Part shown: positions 52,653 to 64,000 of the stretch, piece after piece | How the letters are laid out: each line of letters starts with the position of its first letter | Position numbering within the stretch: position 1 is the stretch's first letter | Assembly (NCBI RefSeq): GCF_000374165.1 | Contig: NZ_KB893712.1 | Coordinates: 98,238 to 162,237, forward strand | Length of the DNA stretch: 64,000 nt | Source: Parafrankia elaeagni | GTDB taxonomy: Bacteria > Actinomycetota > Actinomycetes > Frankiales > Frankiaceae | Direction: 5' to 3' | Position numbers and translations under genes: made by a program | The notes under the pieces: model-generated | What the model was told of the DNA's origin: nothing | The model's database searches: none | What the model saw: only the letters and a program-made list of their open reading frames with translations

Positions 52653-52880
52653 TCAATCGGTGGCGCTCGTCGACTTGAGGTCTGTGCGCGTGCCCCGCCC
52701 TGGTCGGCCGAGTAGCCACGCCTCGACCGTCGACGTCTTCCATCTGGGTCGGTCGGGCACCGACAGGTCATCCGGCTCGGGGAGCAAACCTTTATTGCGG
52801 TAGCTACGTAGCGTGCCTGGCTTGATGCCAGCCCGTTCCGCCATCTCCCGATAGCCGATCAACGGGTCTTCGTCCGACAC
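52653..52880 (-). CDS. AlpA/MerR-like small HTH protein
   Basis: A 75-residue protein with a winged-HTH start: 'LIGYREMAERAGIKPGTLRSYRNKGLLPEPD', then 'DRPRWKTSTVEAWLLGRPGRG'. This is the size and pattern of AlpA-like regulators and excisionases of integrative elements, which bend DNA near att sites or control integrase. GTG 52880 has GGAG ~7 nt upstream. It is divergent from the 53009 gene across a region with an inverted repeat (52900-52926), which could be its own operator. Confidence 0.78.
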   Translation of the reverse strand: MSDEDPLIGYREMAERAGIKPGTLRSYRNKGLLPEPDDLSVPDRPRWKTSTVEAWLLGRPGRGTRTDLKSTSATD

Positions 52881-53008: not shown

Positions 53009-53467
53009 ATGTCTAGTATTCCGCCGTCCGGTCCGGGTAGGTGGCGCAACCCGTTCGACGGACACCGGTTCGTTGCCGTGACGTCTCGCGCCCACGGGGT
53101 CTATGAGGTGACGGTCGCGGCTGGCGCGCTCCTGCGGGATCTCGTCGACGCCACGGCGACCCTGCCGCGGGCCATCTACACCGACCATCGCCCGGTTGCT
53201 CCGGGTCACACGGACGTGTTGTTGACCTTCCGGACGCTGGGTGACCGGCTGCCGGCGTCTGGTGGCGGTGACGGGTGGGTGCCTCCTGACGGCACGTGGG
53301 CGATGCCCGCGTGGAATTCCTTTCAGGAAGCTCTTCACGTGCTGCTGACCAGGATTCCGGGCGGTCCAACCGGTGAGCGGCTGTCCTCGGAGATCCTCGG
53401 GCTCGACCCTCGGTCCGTCGTGGCACTGGCGGACATGGTCCGCGACCATCGCCCGGTGCGCACGTAG
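53009..53467 (+). CDS. Hypothetical protein of the integrative element
   Basis: A 152-residue soluble protein. Visible segments are 'RWRNPFDGHRFVAVTSRAHGVYEVTVAAGALL', a hydrophilic loop 'YTDHRPVAPGHTDVLLTFRT', 'WAMPAWNSFQEALHVLLTRIPGG' and a C-terminal 'GLDPRSVVALADMVRDHRP'. I do not recognise the family. ATG 53009 follows 'caggggtgaccc'. It is divergent from the HTH gene and ends before two hairpins, so it is a single transcription unit. GC content is slightly lower than in chromosomal genes. Confidence 0.7.
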   Translation: MSSIPPSGPGRWRNPFDGHRFVAVTSRAHGVYEVTVAAGALLRDLVDATATLPRAIYTDHRPVAPGHTDVLLTFRTLGDRLPASGGGDGWVPPDGTWAMPAWNSFQEALHVLLTRIPGGPTGERLSSEILGLDPRSVVALADMVRDHRPVRT

Positions 53468-53485
53468 CTTCGACAGGCCAGCTCT

Positions 53486-53518
53486 ACGGCCGGCATCCGA
53501 TCTTCGGATGTCGGCCGT
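53486..53518 (+). terminator. Hairpin after the 53009 gene
   Basis: Arms ACGGCCGGCATCCG and CGGATGTCGGCCGT pair with one mismatch around a 5-nt loop, 19 bp after the stop codon. No T-run follows. Confidence 0.75.
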
Positions 53519-53560
53519 TGCCATTGATCGGCTGCGTTCAGATTGTACAGAACATTAGCG

Positions 53561-53606
53561 ACGGCGATCACCCTCTACATCAGAGGGTGTCACGGTCGCC
53601 GTTTTT
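53561..53606. terminator. Intrinsic terminator with T-run between convergent genes
   Basis: ACGGCGA...ACCCTC (left) pairs with GAGGGT...TCGCCGT (right) with an internal bulge, followed by GTTTTTG. It sits between the 53009 gene and the convergent Nudix gene. T-run terminators are scarce elsewhere in the window, in keeping with foreign origin. Confidence 0.7.
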
Positions 53607-53632
53607 GATCTCTGTGGTCCTGAGTGACCAAC

Positions 53633-54196
53633 TCACGGTCGGATGAGAAGCGTAACTCGGGTACGTTCGCCCAGGCGGCCGGGTAGTTCGGTCAACGGGG
53701 CCCAGCGGTAGTCAGTGACCTCTTCCAGTTGCAGCGCCACGTTGGCGTTGCCAGCTGGTGGATCGATGGACAGCAGGAAGCGAAGATCGTAGTGGATGTG
53801 CTCTGGCTCCCGCTTCGCGGGATTCAGCGGGATCACGTGTGCGTCCACGTCCACGGGCCGTTCGAGGACAGGGCTGACCCAGGTCCGGGGAATCCCTGTC
53901 TCTTCGACCAGCTCCCGTAGGGCCGCGTCCAGAAGCGAGGCGTCATCCGGCTCGATGTGCCCGCCGGGCAGGAGCCATCGGTTCAGGCTGCGGTGGTGGA
54001 TCTGGAGGACCCGGCGATCACGTGTGACTGCGACCACTCCGCAGGTCACGTGGCCGGGTGCGGTCGTCCTGGAAGCTAGGGGTGCATCGCTTCCGCGGGC
54101 CGTTTCCAGTAGAGGGGCCAGGGACTCCGTGTCCTCCGGGTGCGCATCGAGATGCGCACTGATCGTCTTGGCGATGTTGTCATTCGTAACGGGCAC
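53633..54196 (-). CDS. Nudix hydrolase (Pif-like candidate)
   Basis: A 187-residue Nudix protein. The Nudix box is intact: 'GGHIEPDDASLLDAALRELVEETGI' spans G-x5-E-x7-REUxEExGU (residues ~75-97). The N-terminal ~45 residues are helical and the C-terminus 'VTDYRWAPLTELPGRL' is the usual closing strand. In the AICE pSAM2 the Nudix protein Pif blocks redundant transfer between donors; the position in this element suggests a similar immunity role, but that is inference. GTG 54196 has GAGGAG upstream. It lies 6 bp after the adenosylhomocysteinase-like gene, clearly the same operon. Confidence 0.87.
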   Translation of the reverse strand: MPVTNDNIAKTISAHLDAHPEDTESLAPLLETARGSDAPLASRTTAPGHVTCGVVAVTRDRRVLQIHHRSLNRWLLPGGHIEPDDASLLDAALRELVEETGIPRTWVSPVLERPVDVDAHVIPLNPAKREPEHIHYDLRFLLSIDPPAGNANVALQLEEVTDYRWAPLTELPGRLGERTRVTLLIRP

Positions 54197-54202
54197 GGGC
54201 GT

Positions 54203-55387
54203 TCACTCCTCGTTGAAGCATCGCAGCCAGGACCGGGCGATGATTTCACGCTCCCGGTTGCCGACCTCGTGTAGGCCCGGCTCCATGACCTGTCCCGACG
54301 ACAGCAGCGCGAGGGCCGCGAGGATCTCGCCCTGGACGAGGAAGATGAACGGGCCGACCGCGGCACCGTGGACGAAGTTGACTGCATTTCCATCATTGAG
54401 TAGATAGAAATGATGGTTCCACGAGGTCATGCGGCTGAGGTGCGGGCCGAGCCGCTCGATGCGGTAGGTTCCTCGGAGCGAGGCGAGGTTAAGTTCGTCG
54501 TCTGACGACGTCACAGACGCCACGTAGGAGCCGGGCCGTAGGTAGGTGAAGTCTTCACCCTCCAGCGCTCGGTTGCCGGTGGCGCATACGACGACATCGG
54601 CGCGGCCTAGCGCCTCGGCTTTTGACCATTTCACCGCGAAGCCGTGCGACATGGCTTCGACGGCACGCACCGGGTCCGTCTCGTACACGGTCGTGCGGAC
54701 CGATTTGGCGCGGAGGGTGTTCGCCACGCTGCGGCCAATCTTGCCGTAGCCGATGACGCAGGTCTCGCGGCCGTGCAGGATGTCCCCGTGTTCTCGGAGG
54801 AGCGATTCGGTAGAGAACACGATGGACTGACCCACCAGATAGTCTTCCGGCTGTTTCAATGGACTGCGGGCTACCGAGAAAACCGGGCAGGGTAATTTTC
54901 CGCACGAAAGGTACTTGCGGTACCCGTTCTCCGTGTCCTCGACGACTCCCACGATTCGCCCGCTGAACTGTCGGCACAGGGAGGTCAGCGCGGGCGCGAA
55001 GTAGCCGCCGATATCCAGCAAGGCGAGGTCTCGACCCGCGGCCCGCTCCTCGATGTACGCAAGAACTTTCGCCGGATGGACGAAGCGGTCACGCTCCAGG
55101 TCATCGCAGTGGTACCGGCTGCTGACGGCAGCCCGTGTCCCAGGGTCACAGGACTTCGGCTTGGGGAGAATCGATATCAGGTCGTTCCCGTGCGCCACTG
55201 CGTCCAGGAAGAAGGGTCGGTCGGGCAGCATATGAGTGACGACGATGGTCGCCACCTCACGCGTTGACGGGAATGAGTTGTTGATCGTCAGGAAGTACTG
55301 CTCAATTCGTCTTTTTGTCGAAGGTTCGGCGACGATCGTCGCGTGCGTGGGGCGGTCGAGGGTCAGCCTGCCGTCCATCTCGTCCAC
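54203..55387 (-). CDS. Divergent S-adenosylhomocysteine hydrolase-fold protein
   Basis: A 394-residue protein with the SAH-hydrolase architecture but shorter than the usual ~430-490. The NAD domain is clear: 'GRETCVIGYGKIGRSVANTLRAK' followed by 'TTVYETDPVRAVEAMSHGF'. Substrate-side segments align with canonical ones: 'LALLDIGGYFAPAL' (canonical LDDGGD), 'GVVEDTENGYRKY' (SEETTTG) and 'SPLKQPEDYLVG' (VTKSKFDN). By eye the active-site Lys and one Asp are kept, while the second Asp of DDGGD, the Glu of EETTTG and the Asn after KSKFD are replaced. The C-terminus lacks the KPDHYRY tail. It may bind another nucleoside. GTG 55387 or ATG 55378. Confidence 0.75.
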   Translation of the reverse strand: MDEMDGRLTLDRPTHATIVAEPSTKRRIEQYFLTINNSFPSTREVATIVVTHMLPDRPFFLDAVAHGNDLISILPKPKSCDPGTRAAVSSRYHCDDLERDRFVHPAKVLAYIEERAAGRDLALLDIGGYFAPALTSLCRQFSGRIVGVVEDTENGYRKYLSCGKLPCPVFSVARSPLKQPEDYLVGQSIVFSTESLLREHGDILHGRETCVIGYGKIGRSVANTLRAKSVRTTVYETDPVRAVEAMSHGFAVKWSKAEALGRADVVVCATGNRALEGEDFTYLRPGSYVASVTSSDDELNLASLRGTYRIERLGPHLSRMTSWNHHFYLLNDGNAVNFVHGAAVGPFIFLVQGEILAALALLSSGQVMEPGLHEVGNREREIIARSWLRCFNEE

Positions 55388-55417
55388 GTTCGGTCGACTC
55401 CTAGATCCAGGACGGAA

Positions 55418-55783
55418 TTATGCAGGGGGGTTGCTGTGGACCTGATTCTCGTCGGGGTTGCCAGGGGATGCATCGGTCTCCCCGTTCATCGGCTCGCAGC
55501 CACCGACCTTCGTGAAAATCGTCCACGCGATGAGTTCGCACGTCTCCCGTGTGATTCGCCGCGTGATCCGCTGCGTCCGATCCTCCACCTCCAATGGTAG
55601 GATAACGTCAGGGTTCTGTAGTTTCTCGTGTGCCCAGACGTGGGCCTCATCCCAGGTGGCGAAGATGGCGACCTGTACGCCGTATCCGTTCAGGACAGCG
55701 TAGGGTCGGATGTGCCGGGCAAGTACCTCCCCGAATTCCGCTCCTCTCTGCCCGTGATCTTTTCGATCTGATCCTTGATCCAC
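55418..55783 (-). CDS. Hypothetical protein, overlapping its upstream gene
   Basis: A 121-residue protein. Conserved-looking parts are 'HIRPYAVLNGYGVQVAIFATWDEAHVWAHEKL' and 'RRITRETCELIAWTIFTKVGG'. No family recognised. GTG 55783 has a very strong GGAGGAGG 4-6 nt upstream, so the start is well supported, even though it lies 94 nt inside the preceding gene in another frame. It is followed by the adenosylhomocysteinase-like gene after 30 bp, suggesting one operon. Confidence 0.7.
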   Translation of the reverse strand: MDQGSDRKDHGQRGAEFGEVLARHIRPYAVLNGYGVQVAIFATWDEAHVWAHEKLQNPDVILPLEVEDRTQRITRRITRETCELIAWTIFTKVGGCEPMNGETDASPGNPDENQVHSNPPA

Positions 55784-55992
55784 CGGACCTCCTCCGTAGC
55801 GTTCTCCACTCGTTCCAGTAGTGCCGCGTACTCAAGGGGCTCGGCGGGGAAATAGCCCTTGTAGCCCGTGAGCTTGCTTTCCAGCTCCTCCATTGCGGTG
55901 ACGGCAACGTCGCTCTGCAATCGCAGCAACCTCAAAGGAAGATCGCCGGGCAGCCTCGGGGCGCCCGACCAGCTTCCGCTCATCCGTTCCAC
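55690..55992 (-). CDS. Small coiled-coil-like hypothetical protein
   Basis: A 100-residue protein with a long helical stretch: 'RLLRLQSDVAVTAMEELESKL', 'EPLEYAALLERVENATEEVRWIKDQIEKI'. Heptad-like spacing suggests a coiled coil. No family recognised. GTG 55992 (or ATG 55983) has GAGGGAG upstream. Its last third is double-coding with the following gene. It is the first gene of the leftward unit divergent from the XRE-TPR regulator. Confidence 0.68.
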   Translation of the reverse strand: MERMSGSWSGAPRLPGDLPLRLLRLQSDVAVTAMEELESKLTGYKGYFPAEPLEYAALLERVENATEEVRWIKDQIEKITGREERNSGRYLPGTSDPTLS

Positions 55993-56113
55993 TGCCCGAT
56001 TTCTCCCTCGTTCGATGTCCGGCCCGGAGCGGCGCCCGAGGCCGAGGAGCCCACCACTGTCATCTGAAGAACGGTTTCCTCGACCCGGCCTCGGGGCCTG
56101 GAGGTAAGTTTGA

Positions 56114-56162
56114 GATCAACGATTCGTGATCACTAGACGTGGCACGCATAGGCGCCATGCGT
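56114..56162. promoter_or_regulatory. Two inverted repeats upstream of the XRE-TPR regulator
   Basis: GATCA/TGATC (56114-56118 and 56127-56131) and ACGCAT/ATGCGT (56144-56149 and 56157-56162). Both lie in the divergent promoter region between the small coiled-coil gene and the regulator gene. Probable operators; the binding protein is not known. Confidence 0.45.
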
Positions 56163-56245
56163 CGTAGGTATGAGTGATCCGCGGCGCTGGATAGACTGCG
56201 CAAGCACCGTCCGGGCATGGGAGGTCACGAAGGGGCGCCCCTGCG

Positions 56246-57763
56246 ATGAGCAACCAGGTAGACGATTCTCGCTACTGCCGTTGCGGCACACGCCTTGCCC
56301 GCGACAACGACCGGGGATCGTGCGGGCCCTGCCAGCGCCGGGCGCGAGAACAGGGCACGGCTGCGCCAGAGGTACCGGCCGGATTCTGGACCGCCTCCGA
56401 TCAGCTTCAGGACGCCCTCGATGAGTGGCACATGGGCCGGGTGATCGCGGCCTACCGCAACCACCCTCATCACACCGTCGCCCTGTCACAAGAGACGGTG
56501 GCCGGGTGGATGGGCATCACCCAGACCCAGTTGAGCCGCATCGAATCGGGTGAGCCGGCGACTGACCTTACGAAACTCATCCGGTGGGCTGAGCTCCTGC
56601 ACATCCCGGAAGATCTGCTGTGGTTCAAGCTCCCACGACAGCGCCCCAACGAGGCAACCTCTGCCCCTGCCCCGGTTGTCTCTCCCACCGCACCGGCGGT
56701 TCCCGACATCCTCGGGGTACCGCCGGGAGACAGCGCGGCTCCGCCGGCGGACCCATACCGGGTGATCGCAAACGTAGGGGAGGTGGTCATCGTGGCCATC
56801 GATCGGCGCACGTTCCTCGCGGGAAGCGGTGCCGGGTTCCTAGTCGGTGGCACGGTTATGCCTCTTGCGTCGTATCAGCAGGTCGCACCTGAGGCCATCG
56901 AGTATCTGGTGGCCCAGCTTGACGGCTACTACCGGGCCGACGCCGCGTTGGGGCCACACGCCGTGATTCCGTCGGTGCTGGTGCAGCAGGAACTCATCCG
57001 GCAGTTCCTGCGCGTCGCCCGGGGGCCCGAACGGCACGCCCTGTTGCGCACAAGCGTCGCCTACGCGGGCCTGACGACCTGGCTTTACCAGGACGCGGGA
57101 GACCTCGTGACCGCGTCGCACTGGGCGAACCAGGCACTCGAACTCGCCCACCGGGTGGGAGATACCCAGCTCGTCCGGCACGCCCTGACAAACAAGGCCA
57201 TGATCTGCACCGACCAGCAGGACGGACCTGGCACTCTCGACTTGACCAGCGCGGCCCTGACGGACGAGAACGGGCTGTGCGCGAAGGTCCGGGTACAGGC
57301 GATGCAGCAGACCGCCCACGGTTACGGCCTCATCGGCGACCGACGCGGTGCCGAGTACGCCTTGGACAAGGCTGCCGCGCTGCTGGCCCGCGTCGACGAT
57401 GACTACCCCTGGTTCAACGCCTGCCGGCGCACCCCCGGCTACATCGAAGTGCAGCGGGCTACCTGCTACAACCGGCTTGGCCTCGGCCGCGAGGCCCTGC
57501 CGCTGTGGGAGCAGGTCATCTCGGCCCTGCCCTCCACAGCCCGCCGAGACAAGGGCGTGTACCGGGCGCGGCAGGCCACCGCGCACGCCCAAGCCGGAAA
57601 CCCTGAGGCCGCCGCGGACGCCGTGACGCACGCCGTCACCGTTGCCCAGGAGACCAGTTCGGCGCGGCTACGGCAGGAACTCCACGGAGTTTGGCAGCAC
57701 CTCACGCCGTGGCATGACCATGAGATTGGACGACAGGTCAAAGCTCTGCTGGTCACGCTGTAG
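56246..57763 (+). CDS. XRE-family regulator with TPR domain and zinc-ribbon-like start
   Basis: A 505-residue regulator. Residues ~10-32 are a CxC...CxxC knuckle ('YCRCGTRLA' and 'SCGPCQRRA'). The HTH (~80-130) reads 'LSQETVAGWMGITQTQLSRIESGEPATDLTKLIRWAELL'. A Pro-rich linker precedes 'IDRRTFLAGSGAGFLVGG' and then a ~300-residue TPR-like array ('SHWANQALELAHRVGDTQLVRHAL'). This architecture is typical of actinobacterial regulators that sense small ligands or peptides. Here it sits in an integrative element, so control of transfer or excision is possible. ATG 56246; it is followed after 15 bp by the pterin dehydratase gene. Confidence 0.86.
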   Translation: MSNQVDDSRYCRCGTRLARDNDRGSCGPCQRRAREQGTAAPEVPAGFWTASDQLQDALDEWHMGRVIAAYRNHPHHTVALSQETVAGWMGITQTQLSRIESGEPATDLTKLIRWAELLHIPEDLLWFKLPRQRPNEATSAPAPVVSPTAPAVPDILGVPPGDSAAPPADPYRVIANVGEVVIVAIDRRTFLAGSGAGFLVGGTVMPLASYQQVAPEAIEYLVAQLDGYYRADAALGPHAVIPSVLVQQELIRQFLRVARGPERHALLRTSVAYAGLTTWLYQDAGDLVTASHWANQALELAHRVGDTQLVRHALTNKAMICTDQQDGPGTLDLTSAALTDENGLCAKVRVQAMQQTAHGYGLIGDRRGAEYALDKAAALLARVDDDYPWFNACRRTPGYIEVQRATCYNRLGLGREALPLWEQVISALPSTARRDKGVYRARQATAHAQAGNPEAAADAVTHAVTVAQETSSARLRQELHGVWQHLTPWHDHEIGRQVKALLVTL

Positions 57764-57778
57764 GAAGGGACAACGAGC

Positions 57779-58102
57779 ATGGGACTACGCGACCCGCTGT
57801 CGGCCGAGGAGGTCACCCGACGTCTGGCCACGCTGGACGGATGGGTGAAGGCCACCGACCGCGAGGAGATCCACAAGACCTTCCCCGTGGAGTATTACGC
57901 CGCGATCGAGGCACTCGGCGCCGTGGCCGAGTCCGCGAAGGAACTGGAGCACCACCCGGACGTCGAACTGCACTGGGGAGAACTGACGTTCAGCCTCACC
58001 ACCTACAGCGCCGGGCAGCAGATCACCGAACTCGACTTCCGGCTGATCGACCGTATCGAAGATGTGCTGGCCCGCTACGTCCAGGAAGAAACGGCGGGAT
58101 AG
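57779..58102 (+). CDS. Pterin-4a-carbinolamine dehydratase
   Basis: A 107-residue PCD. The active-site segment 'AKELEHHPDVELHWGELTFSLTTYSAG' carries the conserved EHHP motif and the His of 'LHWG', with 'LDFRLIDRIEDV' at the end. PCD recycles the 4a-hydroxy-tetrahydropterin of aromatic hydroxylases and also acts as a transcription cofactor (DCoH) in animals. No hydroxylase is in the window. ATG 57779 follows GAAGGGAC. Placed directly after the regulator, it may be cargo or a regulator partner. Confidence 0.9.
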   Translation: MGLRDPLSAEEVTRRLATLDGWVKATDREEIHKTFPVEYYAAIEALGAVAESAKELEHHPDVELHWGELTFSLTTYSAGQQITELDFRLIDRIEDVLARYVQEETAG

Positions 58103-58240
58103 CCGAAGAGCACCCAGAGGGGGACATCTGAAATCCGCGGTCTCTACTCGATCCGCTCCCTCGACTGACGACCCCGCGACCTTCCCCGTGCTCCCCCGGC
58201 GGATGTGGTCCGGGGTCGTCTTCGGTGTGGGGACGTGGGA

Positions 58241-58285
58241 CAGCCCCGGGGCTCGTCCGCTGGTGTGGCGGGTGCCCCGGGGCTG
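58241..58285. terminator. Hairpin with self-palindromic arms between convergent genes
   Basis: CAGCCCCGGGGC (58241-58252) and GCCCCGGGGCTG (58274-58285) are perfect complements; each arm is itself nearly palindromic. It lies between the pterin dehydratase gene and the convergent 58325 gene and would stop transcription from both sides. Confidence 0.75.
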
Positions 58286-58324
58286 TGGGGTGTGCTGGTG
58301 GTGCGCGGGGTGGTGGTGTGTGGG

Positions 58325-58723
58325 TCATGCGGCTTTGCGTCGCTGTTGCCAGATCTCCCAAGCGATGTCGTGGAGGTAGGTGCCTTCGCGTCGGGGTCGG
58401 CGGAAGGCTCCTGGGGTGATCCCGATGCGTTTGGCGGCGCGTTTGCGTCGGTCTTCGATGCCGTTGTGCCAGGTTCCGGGTTCCAACCCGAGCATGATCC
58501 GCATCGCCGCGCTGACGTCGGTTCCGAGAGGCTCGATCGCGTCACGGATGATCTGCTCGGCGGCGATGGCCCGTTCGTCGGGGCTGCCGGTGTGGCTGGG
58601 GGTGAGCAGGTCGACCAGGTGTGGCGCGTGGGTGGCAAGGCGCGTGGCGCGGACGCCGTGGCGCATTGCCTTCCGGAGGTGCTGGGTGAGCGTCGGGACG
58701 TCGATCGGGTGTTCGGTCGTCAT
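58325..58723 (-). CDS. AICE hypothetical protein, paralogue of the 59973 protein
   Basis: A 132-residue helical protein: 'PTLTQHLRKAMRHGVRATRLATHAPHLVDLLTP', 'RAIAAEQIIRDAIEPLG', 'MLGLEPGTWHNGIEDRRKRAAKRIGITPGAFRRP', ending in 'LHDIAWEIWQQRRKAA'. The spacing of HAPhLVxLL, RAI-AE and GLxxG..RR..AA..hGhT blocks recurs in the protein at 59973-60380. The second half resembles actinobacterial modules that read like atypical helix-turn-helix domains. ATG 58723 is chosen although its ribosome site is weak; the frame is open further upstream. Confidence 0.7.
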   Translation of the reverse strand: MTTEHPIDVPTLTQHLRKAMRHGVRATRLATHAPHLVDLLTPSHTGSPDERAIAAEQIIRDAIEPLGTDVSAAMRIMLGLEPGTWHNGIEDRRKRAAKRIGITPGAFRRPRREGTYLHDIAWEIWQQRRKAA

Positions 58724-59092
58724 GTGCGGTCTGGCTGGGGCCGTTGATCGGCCCCCGCTTTCCCCCGCCGTTCCCTCCTCTCGTGTGTGTCGCCCGGAAC
58801 GCGGGGGTTCGGGGCAACGCTGAGCATTCTGACACGTTGACCCACGTGTTGCGGTGTTTGCATCCACTAGCCTCCAGCAACGCACCCTGTGATCACCTGG
58901 CGTCTCTCCGAATCCGGTCTGTCTGATCCGGTGCGGTGCGCGTCCTGGCGGGGGTGCCCGGGTTCCGTCTTCCGGCGCGCGGGGCGCTGGGGCCTGTGAG
59001 TGCCGGGGTGTCTGCATGCAGCAAGGATGCCCACCATCGGGGGCTATCGCAGGTCGCTGGACGCTACGGCCGTTGTTCGGATCCGTGACGTT

Positions 59093-59169
59093 GTGTCCGC
59101 CAGTGTCCGCCAGTGTCCGCCAGTGTCCGCCAGTGCCCGCCAGTGTCCGCCAGTGCCCGCCGGTGTCGG
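59093..59169. repeat. 10-bp tandem repeat (about 7.5 copies)
   Basis: GTGTCCGCCA is repeated with period 10; copies 5 and 7 read GTGCCCGC. Period 10 places every unit on the same DNA face. Streptomyces conjugation loci (clt) carry short direct repeats bound by the FtsK-like TraB protein, and RCR origins may carry iterons, so this array is a candidate for either. Confidence 0.85.
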
Positions 59170-59285
59170 AATGTGCCGCTCCGTCCGGCCCAAACTTTCT
59201 CGGTGTGACTGGCACTTAAGTGGGGGTGGGCCCGCGCTGAGACTCCCACGGCCCGGCCTACGGCACCCAGCGACCACCCCCGACG

Positions 59286-59307
59286 CTTTGTGGTACAGCT
59301 CACAAAG
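59286..59307. promoter_or_regulatory. Inverted repeat CTTTGTG-n8-CACAAAG
   Basis: Perfect 7-bp arms (59286-59292 and 59301-59307) around 8 nt in an otherwise GC-rich zone, ~300 bp before the rightward gene block. A likely operator for an element-encoded repressor (KorSA-like role); inferred from symmetry alone. Confidence 0.5.
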
Positions 59308-59605
59308 AGGCGAATCGGGGCTGTAGGTCCCCGATGGGGTGTGCTGCGGGGGTGCTGGCTGGCGGTGCGCGCGTCGGGGTGGTTGACCTGGGCGTATGCC
59401 GGTCGTGTGCCAGTGGGGTGCCGGCCGCGGTGGCGGGCTGATACCGGTTGAGCGCCTTTCCTGTGCCGCTTTGATGCTGGTTAGCGGCCGGTTATGGGTG
59501 CAGCGCGCTGCCAGCGTTTCGAGGAATTCTGCGTGCACGGCGGGAAACGCCCCGCCAGATGCCCCGCATGGGGCGTCACGTTCTTTCCTCGGAAGGTGGT
59601 TCCTG

Positions 59606-59785
59606 GTGGCTCGGTATGTGTATCGGCGGTCGTTGTGGTGGACGTTCGCGAAGATCTGCGCGGCGATGTGCGCGTTGTATCTGGTGCTCGCGGCGGTGGA
59701 GTGGGTGTTCGAGACGGCGCCGTATCTGGTCCTCGGGTCGTTGACGGTGGCGGCGGGCGCGGTGGCTGCGCGGGTGATCCGCTGA
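59606..59785 (+). CDS. Small membrane protein of the transfer block
   Basis: A 59-residue protein: basic start 'VARYVYRRSLWWTFAKICAAM', then two hydrophobic segments ('CALYLVLAAVEWVF' and 'YLVLGSLTVAAGAVAARVIR'). GTG 59606 is preceded by GGAAGG at 59591-59596; a longer upstream frame is not protein-like. Its stop overlaps the next ATG (TGATG). Position and size match the small Spd-like proteins of Streptomyces plasmids and AICEs, which help plasmid spread between hyphal compartments. Confidence 0.65.
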   Translation: MARYVYRRSLWWTFAKICAAMCALYLVLAAVEWVFETAPYLVLGSLTVAAGAVAARVIR

Positions 59786-59976
59786 TGGGGGAGGACATCG
59801 CCCGGCGACAGCGCATTCTGTTCTGGGCCGCGTTGCTGGCTCTGAATGTGGGTGTTGCGGTCGCGTCGTTCTCGGTGATGGCGCTGGTCGGGGTTCTCGC
59901 TCGGCCGGATCCGGCTCCGTTGGCACCGGTGTCGGTGACGGCGGACCGCGTGGACCGGGTGGAGGTGTCGCGGTGA
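59785..59976 (+). CDS. Small single-span membrane protein
   Basis: A 63-residue protein: charged start 'MGEDIARRQRILFWAALLALNVGVAVASFSVMALVGVLA' shows one long membrane helix (residues ~11-37), then a short Pro/Val tail. ATG 59785 overlaps the preceding stop, and its end overlaps the next GTG by 4 nt. A Spd-like or TraSA-partner membrane protein is likely; no family recognised with certainty. Confidence 0.65.
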   Translation: MGEDIARRQRILFWAALLALNVGVAVASFSVMALVGVLARPDPAPLAPVSVTADRVDRVEVSR

Positions 59977-60380
59977 CCCTCCCCGAGCTGGCGGATGTGT
60001 GGGTGGAGCTGGACGGCACGGTCCGGCACGGCGCGCGGGCGCAGGCGCTCGTGGAACACGCCCCGGACCTGGTTCGACTCTTGGCCCCGGACGACGCAAC
60101 CCCCCTGGTCATCAGGGCTATCACGGCGGAAGGACTGCTCCGGCTGGCGGTGGCCGGTCTGGGCGGGGTTCAGGGTGTGGCGGTGGCTGCGCTGTTCGGG
60201 CTGGCGGACGGGATGGGCGGGCAACCCCTCGGGGTCCGGCGTGAGCACGCGGCGGCGGTGTTGGGGCTCACCGGGTGGGCGTTGCAGAAACCCGCCCGTC
60301 GTGACGGCCTGGTCCTCGGGCTCGCGGTGGAGGTCTGCCGGGTACTCCACGCGGTCCGAAACGACCAGCACCGGCCGTAG
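59973..60380 (+). CDS. AICE hypothetical protein, paralogue of the 58325 protein
   Basis: A 135-residue protein. The blocks 'ARAQALVEHAPDLVRLLAP', 'RAITAEGLLRLAVAGLG', 'ALFGLADGMGGQPLGVRREHAAAVLGLTGWALQKPARRDG' and 'LAVEVCRVLHAVR' follow the same order and spacing as in the opposite-strand protein at 58325-58723. GTG 59973 overlaps the preceding gene (GTGA). The fold may be an atypical HTH or a protein-binding helical module. Function unknown. Confidence 0.75.
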   Translation: MTLPELADVWVELDGTVRHGARAQALVEHAPDLVRLLAPDDATPLVIRAITAEGLLRLAVAGLGGVQGVAVAALFGLADGMGGQPLGVRREHAAAVLGLTGWALQKPARRDGLVLGLAVEVCRVLHAVRNDQHRP

Positions 60381-60548
60381 AACGGCGATCCGCTGGCGGC
60401 GGTCCGATTCCCTTCCTTCTCCGGTCCGTGTTCTGTCCTGCAACTTTCCGCAAACTCGGCTGCCCTTTTCCTCTTCGACCGGTGGATCGTTGAAGGACGA
60501 TGAAAGCCGGTCGGCACCCCCCACTCGACAACCCTTGGAGGTTTTCTG

Positions 60549-60878
60549 ATGCGTGTGATTCCGATCGACGTGGCGGCGTTCACGGTGACGTTGGCGATGG
60601 GTCCGGCGGCGCCGGTGATGGAGATGGACAAGAAGAGCCAGCGCGCTAACACGGACGGCGAGGCTTTGTATCAGGTGCCGGTGGCGTTCGGAATGTCGGA
60701 CGGCACGGCGAGTGTGGTCAACGTTCGTGTGGCGGGTGCGGCTCCGACGGTGCAGGTCGGCGCTCCCGTGGTGATCACGGGTCTGGTCGGGCGGGTGTGG
60801 GAGATGGGCGGCCGTCACGGCATCTCCTACTCCGCGGCGTCGGTCCGGCCGGCGGTCGGGTCGCCCTCGAAGGGCTGA
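60549..60878 (+). CDS. Conserved AICE protein upstream of traSA
   Basis: A 109-residue beta-rich protein: 'MRVIPIDVAAFTVTLAMGPAAPVMEMDKKSQRANTDGEALYQVPVAFGM' (as residues 1-50), then 'ASVVNVRVAG', 'GAPVVITGLVGRVWEMGGRHGISYSAASVRP'. Short proteins of this kind lie just before the FtsK-like gene in many actinomycete integrative elements; the OB-fold-like strand pattern could mean single-stranded-DNA binding, but this is unproven. ATG 60549 follows 'TTGGAGG'. Confidence 0.75.
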   Translation: MRVIPIDVAAFTVTLAMGPAAPVMEMDKKSQRANTDGEALYQVPVAFGMSDGTASVVNVRVAGAAPTVQVGAPVVITGLVGRVWEMGGRHGISYSAASVRPAVGSPSKG

Positions 60879-60963
60879 GTAGACGGGGCGGCGGTCTGGT
60901 GATGTGCCGGGCCGCCGTGCCCTTTCCCGGTTCTGGCTGATCTTCATGTGAAGGGTGGTGGGT

Positions 60964-62664
60964 GTGGTGCCGGTGTTGCAGGTGCGGGCGGGCAGGCTGC
61001 GGCCGGACAACTTCCGGCTACGGCTGCGTCCCTCGGTCTGGGAACTGGCGTTCAAGTACGGGGCCCGGACGCTGTGGGGGTGGCGCCGTGAGCTGGGGGT
61101 GCTGGGCGGGCTGGTGTGGCTGCGCGGGCAGCTGGCCGGACTGTTCGGCGCGGACGGCGGCATGGTCGTGCTCGGCGTGCTCGCCGTGCTGGTCCTGGTC
61201 GTCGCGCCGTGGCGACGCGCGGTGCTCGGCTGGCTGGGGGTCGGGCGGCTGCGGCGGCGCTGGTCGGCGGCGTGTCGGGCGTCCGGGTTGGAAGTAGCGG
61301 GGCGTTCTCCGGGGATCCGGCGGGTGCGACGTACCGCGGCGGGGCGGACCTTCCGCGTTCGTCTGCGTCCCGGTCAGGACGTGAACGATCTGCAACGGGT
61401 CGCGTTGAAGCTCGCGGCGGCGCTCGGGGGCCGTGATCTGCGGATCGCTGCGGACCTGGCGCATGCCGGGCGGGCGGATGTGGTGTTGGTCAACCGGGAG
61501 GCGCTCGGGGCCACGGTCGGCGCGGTGGACCTCGACGGCGGCGGCGATGACCTGTCGGATCTGGATGCGGTGCCGGTCGGGCGGCGTGAGGACGGCGGCC
61601 CGTGGCTGCTACGGCTCCGTGGCTCGCATGTCCTTGTCGCTGGCGCATCCGGTGCGGGTAAGGCGTCGGTGTTGTGGTCGATCGTCCGCGCGTTGGCGGT
61701 GGCGATCCGCTCGGGGCTGGTGCAGGTGTGGGCGGCCGATCCCAAGGGCGGGATGGAGCTGGGGTTCGGTGAACCGCTGTTCCGTCACTTCGCTACGGAT
61801 ATCGAGGGCATCGCGGATCTACTCGAAGACGCGGTGGGCACGATGCAGCGGCGGACGGGCTGGCTCCGTGGCCGGACCCGGCTGCACACCCCGACCCGGA
61901 AACACCCCCTGATCGTGATCATGGTGGATGAGATCGCCGCGCTGACCGCCTATGCGGCGGACCGGGAGACCAAACAGCGGATCTCCGGGGCGCTGTCGCT
62001 GCTGCTATCCCAGGGCCGTGCGGCCGGGGTCGTCGTGATCGGCGCGGTGCAGGACCCGCGTAAGGATGTGGTGCCGTTCCGGGACCTGTTCCAAATCCGG
62101 GTTGCGCTACGGATGAAGGCCGCGGAAGCCAACCTGGTGCTGGGCGAGGACGCCTACCTGCGCGGCGCGTGGACCGACCGGATCCCGATGTCGCTGCCGG
62201 GTGTCGGCTACGTGTTGGAAGACGGCGATCCCACCCCTGTGCGGGTGCGCGCCGCGTGGGTGGACGACCAGGACATCCACACCATGGCGGCGCAGTACGG
62301 GCAGGCACCGCAGTGGGCGGCCCCGGCCTGGGCGGCGCTGCCGCACAGCGCTCCGGCACCGAAGCTGCCCCGCCTCGTCCCGCCCACGGCGGCACTGCCC
62401 CCACCGGTACGGCCTGCCGCCCCACCTCCACCCGTGCCACCCCCGGCGCCATCCTCGGCGGGGGCTGCGGCGGCTGGCGGCTGGGTGCCTGACCTGAGCG
62501 CGTACGGCGTGGATGACGACCCGACGATTCCGCTTCGCCTGCCGCTTCCCCCACCCCCGGCGTTGCCTCCGGTGCCTCCACCGACAGCGGATGACGGAAG
62601 TCCCGCGTCTGAGGCGCTGTGGGAACGGTTCGCGCGCCGTCAGCGCCCCCCTGAGCAGAGCTAG
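60964..62664 (+). CDS. traSA: FtsK/SpoIIIE-type DNA translocase (TraSA/TraB-like)
   Basis: A 566-residue translocase. The N-terminus has two hydrophobic segments (~35-85). The motor domain shows Walker A 'VAGASGAGKASVLW', 'VWAADPKGGMELGFG', Walker B 'PLIVIMVDEIAALTAYA', and 'SQGRAAGVVVIGAVQDPRKDV'. The C-terminal ~120 residues are Pro-rich. In Streptomyces such single proteins move double-stranded DNA between mycelia after binding repeats at clt. The GTG cluster at 60955-60969 leaves the start ambiguous; GTG 60964 is 8 nt after AAGGG. Confidence 0.92.
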   Translation: MVPVLQVRAGRLRPDNFRLRLRPSVWELAFKYGARTLWGWRRELGVLGGLVWLRGQLAGLFGADGGMVVLGVLAVLVLVVAPWRRAVLGWLGVGRLRRRWSAACRASGLEVAGRSPGIRRVRRTAAGRTFRVRLRPGQDVNDLQRVALKLAAALGGRDLRIAADLAHAGRADVVLVNREALGATVGAVDLDGGGDDLSDLDAVPVGRREDGGPWLLRLRGSHVLVAGASGAGKASVLWSIVRALAVAIRSGLVQVWAADPKGGMELGFGEPLFRHFATDIEGIADLLEDAVGTMQRRTGWLRGRTRLHTPTRKHPLIVIMVDEIAALTAYAADRETKQRISGALSLLLSQGRAAGVVVIGAVQDPRKDVVPFRDLFQIRVALRMKAAEANLVLGEDAYLRGAWTDRIPMSLPGVGYVLEDGDPTPVRVRAAWVDDQDIHTMAAQYGQAPQWAAPAWAALPHSAPAPKLPRLVPPTAALPPPVRPAAPPPPVPPPAPSSAGAAAAGGWVPDLSAYGVDDDPTIPLRLPLPPPPALPPVPPPTADDGSPASEALWERFARRQRPPEQS

Positions 62665-62762
62665 CCCGAAAGCCCCTCCTCTCCTTCTCGTCGCAGGGGC
62701 GTGACCGGCCTGGCGTTCGTGCCGGGCCGGTTCCCGCCGTGCCCGAAAACAGGGACACGATC

Positions 62763-64000
62763 ATGAGTGAGGCTTCCCCCGACGATCGGTCGATCGCGGG
62801 TGGCTGTTCCCGTCCGATCCGCCTGGCGGGACATGTTGACCATGTTGATACGGCTACGGGTGAGATCCGCCGGGCGTTCACCAGCTCGGATCAACCGGGC
62901 GGGGTGCTGCATGTGCGGTGCAACAACCGGCGGGAGAGCGCGTGTCCGGCCTGCTCGGCGGTGTACAAGCGGGACGCGCGGCGGCTGGTCCTGGCCGGGC
63001 TGGCGGGTGGCAAGGGTGTGCCGGAGACGGTCACCGGGCATCCGGCGTGGTTCGTCACGCTGACCGCGCCGTCGTTCGGCCCGGTGCATTCCCGCCGTCA
63101 ACAGGGCGGGAAAACCGGTCCGGTGCGGGCGTGTCACCCCCGGCGGGGGCTGTGTCCGCATGGCCGTGCGGCGGGCTGTCATGAGCGGCACCGTGAGGAT
63201 GATTCCCGGCTCGGTTCCCCGATCTGCCCGGACTGCTACGCCTATGGCCGGTCGGTGACCTGGAACGCGCTCGTCCCCCGGCTGTGGAAGGCCACCCGCG
63301 ACGCGACGGAATCCGCGGTGGCGGCGGCGGCCGGGTTGACCGTGGCGGGGCTTCGCCGTTCGGCGCGGTTGAGCTTCGTGAAGGTCGCGGAGATGCAGGC
63401 ACGGGGCGTGGTGCACCTGCATGTGGTGGTCCGGGTCGACGGGCCGGACGGGCCTGGTTCTGCTCCCCCGGGGTGGGCGGATGGAGAGCTGGTCGCGGAC
63501 GCTCTGCGGGATGTTGTCGGGTCGGTTGCGGTCCCTGCTCCCGATCCGGACGCGCTCACCCACGGCACGGGCACGGGCACGGGTGCCGATGACGGGTGGG
63601 CGGTGCGCTGGGGTGTCCAGGTCGACATCCGGCGCATCGCGCTCGACGGTCCCACCGACGTCGGGCGAGTCAGCAACTATCTCGCGAAGTACATCACCAA
63701 GTCGGCAGCGGCCGGTGGGGCGTTGGATCATCCGGTGCGGTCGTTGGCCGCACTCGGCCGGCTGGTCCTGGCGCCCCACGTGCGGCGGCTGGTGGAGACC
63801 TGCTGGCGACTCGGCCACGACCCGGCATTCACGGCGGCGTTGGATGCGGCACTCGGCCGGGACTCCGGTGATGTCCCGCGGCTGCTGCGCTGGGCCCACC
63901 AAATGGGGTTCGGTGGCCACTGGCTCACGAAATCGCGGGCCTACTCGACGACGTTCACCGCGTTGCGGACGGTGCGGCGGGTGTGGTCCCGCACGATCGG
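62763..64000 (+). CDS. repSA: RepSA-type replication initiator (3' end missing)
   Basis: The frame is open from ATG 62763 to the window end (412 codons). It is the rolling-circle-type initiator of AICEs: Cys-rich start 'RCNNRRESACPACSAVYKRD', a further zinc-like pair 'SPICPDCYAYG', the HUH-like metal motif in 'GVVHLHVVVRVDG', and the catalytic Tyr region 'RVSNYLAKYITKS'. RepSA replicates the excised element before transfer. It lies 99 bp after traSA in the same direction. In pSAM2-like elements xis and int follow, and att would be next to int, to the right of this window. Confidence 0.9.
   Translation, partial: MSEASPDDRSIAGGCSRPIRLAGHVDHVDTATGEIRRAFTSSDQPGGVLHVRCNNRRESACPACSAVYKRDARRLVLAGLAGGKGVPETVTGHPAWFVTLTAPSFGPVHSRRQQGGKTGPVRACHPRRGLCPHGRAAGCHERHREDDSRLGSPICPDCYAYGRSVTWNALVPRLWKATRDATESAVAAAAGLTVAGLRRSARLSFVKVAEMQARGVVHLHVVVRVDGPDGPGSAPPGWADGELVADALRDVVGSVAVPAPDPDALTHGTGTGTGADDGWAVRWGVQVDIRRIALDGPTDVGRVSNYLAKYITKSAAAGGALDHPVRSLAALGRLVLAPHVRRLVETCWRLGHDPAFTAALDAALGRDSGDVPRLLRWAHQMGFGGHWLTKSRAYSTTFTALRTVRRVWSRTI

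Follow-up and report, generated by a model that had tools for sequence, protein, structure and literature searches.

Relatives of S-adenosylhomocysteine (SAH) hydrolase have been recruited in nucleoside antibiotic pathways, such as AgmF, the angustmycin dehydratase, which holds its own NAD+ (PMC8599513), and HcdB/AnmB/Her4 of the herbicidin family (PMC6794829), as far as the available parts of these papers describe them. Nudix genes are often carried by actinomycete integrative and conjugative elements (AICEs), according to the accessible text of PMC3218068. The present work concerns a window of 64,000 nucleotides of Parafrankia elaeagni (contig NZ_KB893712.1, positions 98,238 to 162,237 of the forward strand), in which a divergent SAH-hydrolase-like protein, hereafter SAHHL, is encoded next to a Nudix hydrolase. 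These two genes form a recurrent, tightly spaced pair, found next to changing regulators. The best of the readings that we weighed, although held tentatively, is that of a regulatory block joined to a nucleoside-modifying module which makes a small compound and is carried as cargo on an AICE-derived island. The four co-oriented leftward genes reported by the initial annotation are indeed present as open reading frames, at the positions and in the order that it gave:

53633-54196, minus strand: Nudix hydrolase (P0001, 187 aa), encoded second in the constant pair; Pfam NUDIX, E 1.4e-15
54203-55387, minus strand: SAHHL (P0002, 394 aa), NAD-binding protein with the SAH-hydrolase fold, encoded first in the constant pair; Pfam AdoHcyase_NAD, E 2.2e-17
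55418-55783, minus strand: unkB (P0003, 121 aa), small protein from a family associated with regulators
55690-55992, minus strand: ccA (P0004, 100 aa), small protein whose gene accompanies unkB

The Nudix, SAHHL and unkB genes are spaced by 6 and 30 nt, and ccA and unkB overlap by 94 nt. By description, not by direct sequence comparison, SAHHL resembles AgmF and HcdB/AnmB/Her4, whose neighbour genes, in the available text, differ from its own. Pif of pSAM2, likened by description too, has the Nudix domain in common with the present protein, and the window offers AICE-type surroundings, but the accessible parts of its sources mention no SAH-hydrolase-type partner, and the word "homocysteine" is absent from what was available of PMC3218068 and PMC9513070. 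The mdp-nud-xre cluster of Frankia AICEs, as the accessible text of PMC3218068 presents it, likewise places a Nudix gene close to an XRE regulator within an AICE-type element, whereas the window has SAHHL instead, with no HD gene recognised beside the Nudix gene. A literature search, in which the papers listed were judged by title and abstract opening, found no description of the SAHHL-Nudix pair.

SAHHL and Nudix genes form a recurrent, tightly spaced pair

The linkage of the two genes was retained outside the window, in a survey whose gene calls came from a simple codon-composition caller and not from a standard program. A Nudix gene of the same subfamily lay directly downstream of SAHHL, on the same strand, at 91 of 107 loci (including the window and the duplicate pairs L008/L030 and L021/L073); 4 loci left no room for it and 12 had none. 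The order and class searches contributed 18 loci, 16 of which had room for the gene, and 14 of these had it, at a gap of -18 to 15 nt. By comparison, a Nudix gene was present at none of 30 ordinary SAH-hydrolase loci of the same order, within flanks of about 1.5 kb on either side; 26 of these controls were 84-100% identical, and 4 were 47-48% identical, to the genome's own ordinary SAH hydrolase. The 12 Nudix-less loci include L002, an ordinary SAH hydrolase, and L012-L014, which are distant. The proposal that an NAD protein and a nucleotide hydrolase work together thus stands as regards these two genes, whose recurrent tight linkage argues for one pathway acting on a nucleoside or nucleotide, and falls as regards ccA and unkB, which belong to a regulatory block (see below).

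The distribution of the pair is uneven. SAHHL was detected in 13 of 36 genomes of the order (E <= 1e-20), three of them with only distant matches (31-34% identity), and in 17 of 394 class genomes (E <= 1e-35), ten of which are from this order. A draw from the phylum gave 1 of 396 genomes, namely the window's own; in both the class and the phylum draws, scoring was limited to a few candidates from each genome. A scan of named genomes gave 274 SAHHL relatives, of which the best 80, all actinobacterial by title, furnished the named-genome loci, a choice that leans towards close relatives; the closest to the window's SAHHL among these 80 are from Frankia. The Nudix subfamily had matches in 35 of the 36 genomes of the order (E <= 1e-12). 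None of six stretches of viral contigs that matched a pattern encodes an SAHHL relative, and the three records matched in a phage collection reached only 26-29% identity over 46-57% of the query.

More distant relatives of SAHHL (about 27-33% identity) were found on plasmids of Lactiplantibacillus, Pediococcus, Levilactobacillus, Lentilactobacillus and Staphylococcus. In the four such Firmicutes records examined, an HD-domain gene is followed by the SAHHL relative, with an MFS gene beside it, although in one of them (L119) only two thirds of the query was matched. A 24.9-kb plasmid of Staphylococcus epidermidis (L118, NZ_CP121498.1, 578-8418) carries an operon that looks like a biosynthetic cluster, comprising an HpaB-type oxygenase, Nudix, a protein of the Xaa-Pro-peptidase family, a PALP enzyme, a phosphoribosyltransferase, HD, the SAHHL relative and MFS. 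The idea that this operon is a 6-N-hydroxyaminopurine cluster is not put forward here, as none of the five papers found on it concerned the matter by title and abstract opening.

The usual coupling to a nucleotide hydrolase, whether Nudix or the HD gene beside MFS, and the sparse, patchy occurrence of SAHHL are in line with detoxification or resistance, in which the pair would inactivate or recycle a harmful nucleoside or nucleotide analogue, own or foreign, and be kept as an accessory resistance trait. We consider this role possible but rather unlikely, as the regulators beside the pair and the biosynthetic-type surroundings in one clade (see below) fit synthesis at least equally well.

Active-site residues and putative chemistry

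SAHHL adopts, in a predicted model, the SAH-hydrolase fold with its NAD domain, but differs from the true enzyme in scoring 86.1 bits against the curated equivalog TIGR00936, the cut-off of which is 497.6; the window's genome, of 7.59 Mb in 135 contigs, holds a separate, ordinary SAH hydrolase copy. That substrate residues are altered while the NAD site is intact, as first proposed, holds across the 96-99 family rows aligned to this ordinary copy, a set that includes five near-identical or duplicate pairs and leaves out L002 and L012-L014. Residues of ribose 3'-oxidation were kept in nearly all rows (H52 in 97/97, T152 in 99/99, K178 in 99/99 and D182 in 98/99), as were the GxGxxG motif (99/99), D/E236 (99/99) and N337 (97/97); we take the first four to be the equivalents of H55, T157, K186 and D190 of human SAH hydrolase. 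By contrast, at positions labelled by human numbering, the D131-equivalent is V or I in 96/96 rows (V/I126), the H301-equivalent is S in 97/97 (S294) and the H353-equivalent is P, T or A in at least 87/97; the N191-equivalent is also changed. SAHHL further displays near-invariant motifs of its own, KP(K/R)S, EDTENG, ARSPLK and GNAVNF. The Nudix protein has a Nudix domain with an REuxEE box, the R and E of which are invariant in 13 aligned members, and a ratio of nonsynonymous to synonymous substitution rates of 0.21-0.22. On this sequence evidence, both proteins retain catalytic signatures and are under purifying selection.

A partly similar picture emerges with AgmF, within the available text of PMC8599513. 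Its H56, K184 and D188 would correspond to H52, K178 and D182 of SAHHL, whereas D129 and H299, two of the five residues varied in that study, are without counterpart, V/I126 and S294 standing in their place; these equivalences follow from a numbering offset, no AgmF sequence having been aligned. As to the reaction, the NAD+ bound by SAHHL would oxidise the 3'-OH of a ribosyl substrate other than SAH and, without the usual C4' base and 5'-leaving-group residues, the enzyme may then perform a different follow-up step, be it elimination, addition or epimerisation. The Nudix hydrolase may cleave the pyrophosphate of a nucleotide precursor or product, so that both enzymes together would yield a modified nucleoside or nucleoside phosphate. 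The pair represents a repurposed SAH-hydrolase fold in a two-gene setting.

Regulators and biosynthetic surroundings

The initial annotation had treated all four genes as one unit. Two modules nevertheless separate in relatives, and the four genes as a single system were rejected for this reason. The complete set stands together only in the window and in three close Frankia-type relatives, G003, G020 and G022 (split over two contigs in the last), so that co-occurrence elsewhere was confirmed for the enzyme pair and not, beyond close relatives, for the set of four. SAHHL-Nudix also occurs without ccA-unkB and, conversely, ccA-unkB lacks an adjoining SAHHL-Nudix in six relatives, G019, G021, G032, G031, G025 and G015 (loci L207-L212); SAHHL is absent at E <= 1e-20 from G021, G031, G025 and G015, and G019 and G032 have only distant matches, elsewhere in the genome. 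In the window, two genes lie divergent from ccA-unkB:

56246-57763, plus strand: NsdA-family XRE/TPR regulator (P0005, 505 aa), divergent; NCBIfam NF053720, 174.6 bits, cut-off 75
57779-58102, plus strand: pterin-4a-carbinolamine dehydratase-like protein (PCD), repeatedly found with the XRE gene; Pfam Pterin_4a, E 1.1e-20

A divergent NsdA-type XRE gene likewise adjoins ccA-unkB in G019, G021, G032 and G031; the contig of G025 ends near ccA-unkB, and no such gene was found in the piece examined around ccA-unkB of G015. Relatives of unkB were found in 34 of the 36 genomes of the order (E <= 0.001), and at L214 and L215 they stand with HATPase, XRE-DUF5753 and DUF397 genes, which are the gene types of the Streptomyces whiJ/abaA/bldB loci in the accessible part of PMC10294661. 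Since ccA-unkB is found with NsdA-type genes without SAHHL-Nudix, and unkB relatives with these other regulatory genes, ccA-unkB belongs with the regulator, as a regulatory block, and unkB is probably not an enzyme of the pair. HATPase and XRE genes also precede SAHHL at many loci, in line with the whiJ-type arrangement as that text describes it, whereas the window has an NsdA-family regulator, next to which neither a HATPase nor a DUF397 gene was recognised. Searches of Pfam and NCBIfam profiles gave no convincing match for ccA or unkB, and the unkB fold model (predicted local distance difference test score 72.4) had no PDB match at E <= 0.001.

The overlap of ccA and unkB had been read as double coding. 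The overlap itself is real and recurs in relatives, shorter in G003, where ccA has 89 aa. Compared with relatives, the unkB-only sequence displays an excess of differences at third codon positions (20/41, 22/40 and 30/59) and the ccA-only sequence a weak one (19/42, 17/41 and 27/64), while neither frame displays it inside the overlap. Double coding was rejected on this ground, and the arrangement looks like an ordinary operon overlap. A promoter and terminator scan of 53400-56400 gave nothing above chance, and a repeat scan of 55960-56280 gave short matches only.

Several other arrangements around NsdA-type genes were observed. The succession of an NsdA-type XRE/TPR gene and a PCD-like gene (56246-58102 in the window) is a recurrent one, also seen on Streptomyces plasmids (L125, L126) with no SAHHL listed beside it. 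In two Frankia-type genomes (L227, 2277-7901; L228, 3035-8548), a run of six genes lies divergent from an NsdA-type XRE gene and encodes a kinase-like protein, a distant SAH-hydrolase-like protein (516-521 aa), a protein of 171-177 aa, a methyltransferase, a methyltransferase-like protein and a GNAT protein. A relative of this kinase-like gene occurs with a radical SAM gene, divergent from an NsdA-type XRE gene, at L236 (8264-10200), and a PCMT-type methyltransferase is encoded among genes divergent from NsdA-type XRE genes at L231 (4450-5700) and L232 (4552-5802).

Regulators are indeed frequent upstream of the pair. Loci with three or more genes upstream numbered 79; within four genes upstream, 64 of them had a regulator-type or HATPase gene and 56 an XRE/HTH-type gene, seven of which hold u20, counted as XRE-type without a Pfam match (at least 49 without u20). 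Control genes had an XRE/HTH-type gene nearby in 20 of 98 cases and a HATPase gene in 10 of 98, an imperfect comparison because these controls come from the same neighbourhoods. The SAHHL tree has 17 changes of regulator label, for a possible minimum of 7; it was made by a quick method and has several long branches, and 25 of its 95 rows carry no regulator label. The upstream XRE/HTH-type genes are in line with a non-catalytic SAHHL that would sense a ligand or NAD and work with the XRE regulator, the Nudix protein clearing the ligand. We find such a sensor quite improbable, as the near-invariant ribose-oxidising residues would be needless for it and the type of regulator keeps changing on the tree.

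Nine of the 15 regulator-less loci fall in one SAHHL clade of ten, with a support of 99 in the SH-like approximate likelihood ratio test (SH-aLRT). Loci of this clade carry subsets of thymidylate-synthase-like, carbamoyltransferase, glycosyltransferase-like, methyltransferase, APH, histidine-phosphatase, epimerase and CTP-transferase genes. An unassigned nucleoside-type biosynthetic cluster containing SAHHL was seen in actinobacteria at L049, L061, L075, L076, L079, L092, L095, L100 and L102, the SAHHLs of which form one clade.

Taken as a whole, the locus may be a regulatory block, in which the NsdA-type XRE gene is divergent from ccA-unkB, with a two-enzyme module attached; under the adjacent regulator, this module would make a small nucleoside-type compound, a signal or an antimetabolite. 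The role that we consider most likely is to synthesise a modified nucleoside, with detoxification in second place. Several points weigh against it. Most annotated loci (64/79) show a regulator but no recognisable biosynthetic set, so that a complete pathway is not visible at most of them. SAHHL also stands truly without Nudix at L010/L011 (47% identity), L017-L020 (33-43%), and L049 and L061 (the biosynthetic clade), and the same two genes would be expected of detoxification or of nucleotide house-cleaning. Should the pair indeed make a nucleoside, it would amount to a biosynthetic module of very small size and connect the poorly understood NsdA/WhiJ-type regulators with a concrete product.

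Mobile-element setting and possible immunity roles

The GC content of the four genes is 0.60-0.65, against 0.73 in the first 52 kb of the window (1-52000), and they were therefore probably acquired. To their right, two genes mark an AICE-like element, and to their left lies the edge of a variable slot:

53009-53467, plus strand: P6, unknown protein lying beyond the enzyme pair, where it marks the left edge of the variable slot
60955-62664, plus strand: FtsK/SpoIIIE-type ATPase, transfer-type gene of the AICE-like element; Pfam FtsK_SpoIIIE, E 1.5e-11
62739-63998, plus strand: RepSA replication initiator, open at the window and contig end; Pfam RepSA, E 6.2e-136

Small RepSA, FtsK and serine recombinase profiles were searched against the 107 loci and ten larger pieces around some of them, with counts that are lower bounds. 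RepSA matches were found at L028/L117 (one strain, G022), L055 and L108, FtsK-type matches at L055 (Streptomyces naganishii) and L113 (G024), and recombinase matches at L028/L117, L075, L108 and L112. The block of G003 has RepSA and a serine recombinase, and that of G020 a recombinase match; no FtsK match was found in the pieces examined of either genome. Between their PCD and RepSA genes, G003 and G022 have no match to the transfer-type segment with FtsK (58103-62777), which was thus either inserted in the window or lost in these two. With RepSA or FtsK-type matches near it in the window, G003, G022, G024 and L055, the pair rides AICE-like DNA in at least five genomes, and we infer that in the window it travels as accessory cargo of an AICE-derived island. 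Recurrence in mobile elements, suggested at the outset as a support for a working system, thus extends to these genomes and not to the named ones in general: among the 80 named-genome loci only L028 and L055 had a RepSA or FtsK-type match and, among the 66 of at least 15 kb, only L055.

Such surroundings recall transfer exclusion of sister elements in the manner of Pif, which is a Nudix protein in the accessible text of PMC3218068. The RepSA and FtsK genes of the window's element, the FtsK-type gene near the pair in G024 and the presence of both types at L055 are in line with exclusion, which nonetheless seems very unlikely to us given the single match among the larger named-genome loci, the purifying selection on SAHHL-Nudix in G003 and G020, where FtsK went undetected, and the presence of the Nudix subfamily in nearly all genomes of the order. 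Position on an AICE is, on its own, no ground for calling a Nudix gene an exclusion factor.

Prokaryotic viperins offer the comparison for phage defence by nucleotide analogues, and the pair might, by analogy, make an analogue that blocks phage replication. The slot between P6 and unkB, occupied by SAHHL-Nudix in the window, is of interest here. P6 homologues lie on its far side in L108, L112, L207 and L208, and its content differs among relatives, with a DUF6119 gene in G019 and an unknown 587-aa gene in G021. In G021, an alignment judged by eye displays a short remnant of the SAHHL start, which suggests that SAHHL was replaced there rather than never present. In G020, Mrr_cat, HNH_3 and weakly NA-iREase1-like (18.8 bits, cut-off 27) genes stand between P6 and the pair; the HNH_3 gene, however, may encode a homing-type nuclease (zf-His_Me_endon match), and a single genome is weak evidence. 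Searches of the PADLOC models gave no match for SAHHL, a weak and generic one for the Nudix protein (PDC-S07, E 8.9e-4, 16.9 bits), and one marginal match (AbiEi, E 0.024) among ten slot or neighbour proteins. Phage defence is an unlikely role, and none of the present observations shows the pair to act in immunity. A bolder proposal, which we hold to be improbable, is that of a minimal mobile generator of nucleoside antimetabolites or signals, an analogue of viperin in its chemistry, in which SAHHL would produce a 3'-keto or 4',5'-dehydro nucleoside. Exchangeable NsdA/WhiJ-type regulators would switch this generator on, and it would serve against phage or as an intercellular signal.

Elsewhere in the window, PADLOC matches that are probably generic were given by a MerR-type protein (52653-52880; mad1, 25.9 bits), the FtsK-type protein (mad8, 43.6 bits) and the XRE protein. 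A short repeated stretch in open reading frame translations at about 59044-59300 (GGHWRTLADT-type in one frame) suggests a tandem DNA repeat. Finally, Streptomyces linear plasmids (L121, 5001-6476; L122; L123; L124) encode long NUDIX-annotated proteins (about 490-530 aa) that match P0001 over part of their length; three Nudix stretches are present in the L121 protein, and HIT, phosphotransferase, MFS or methyltransferase genes adjoin these long proteins.

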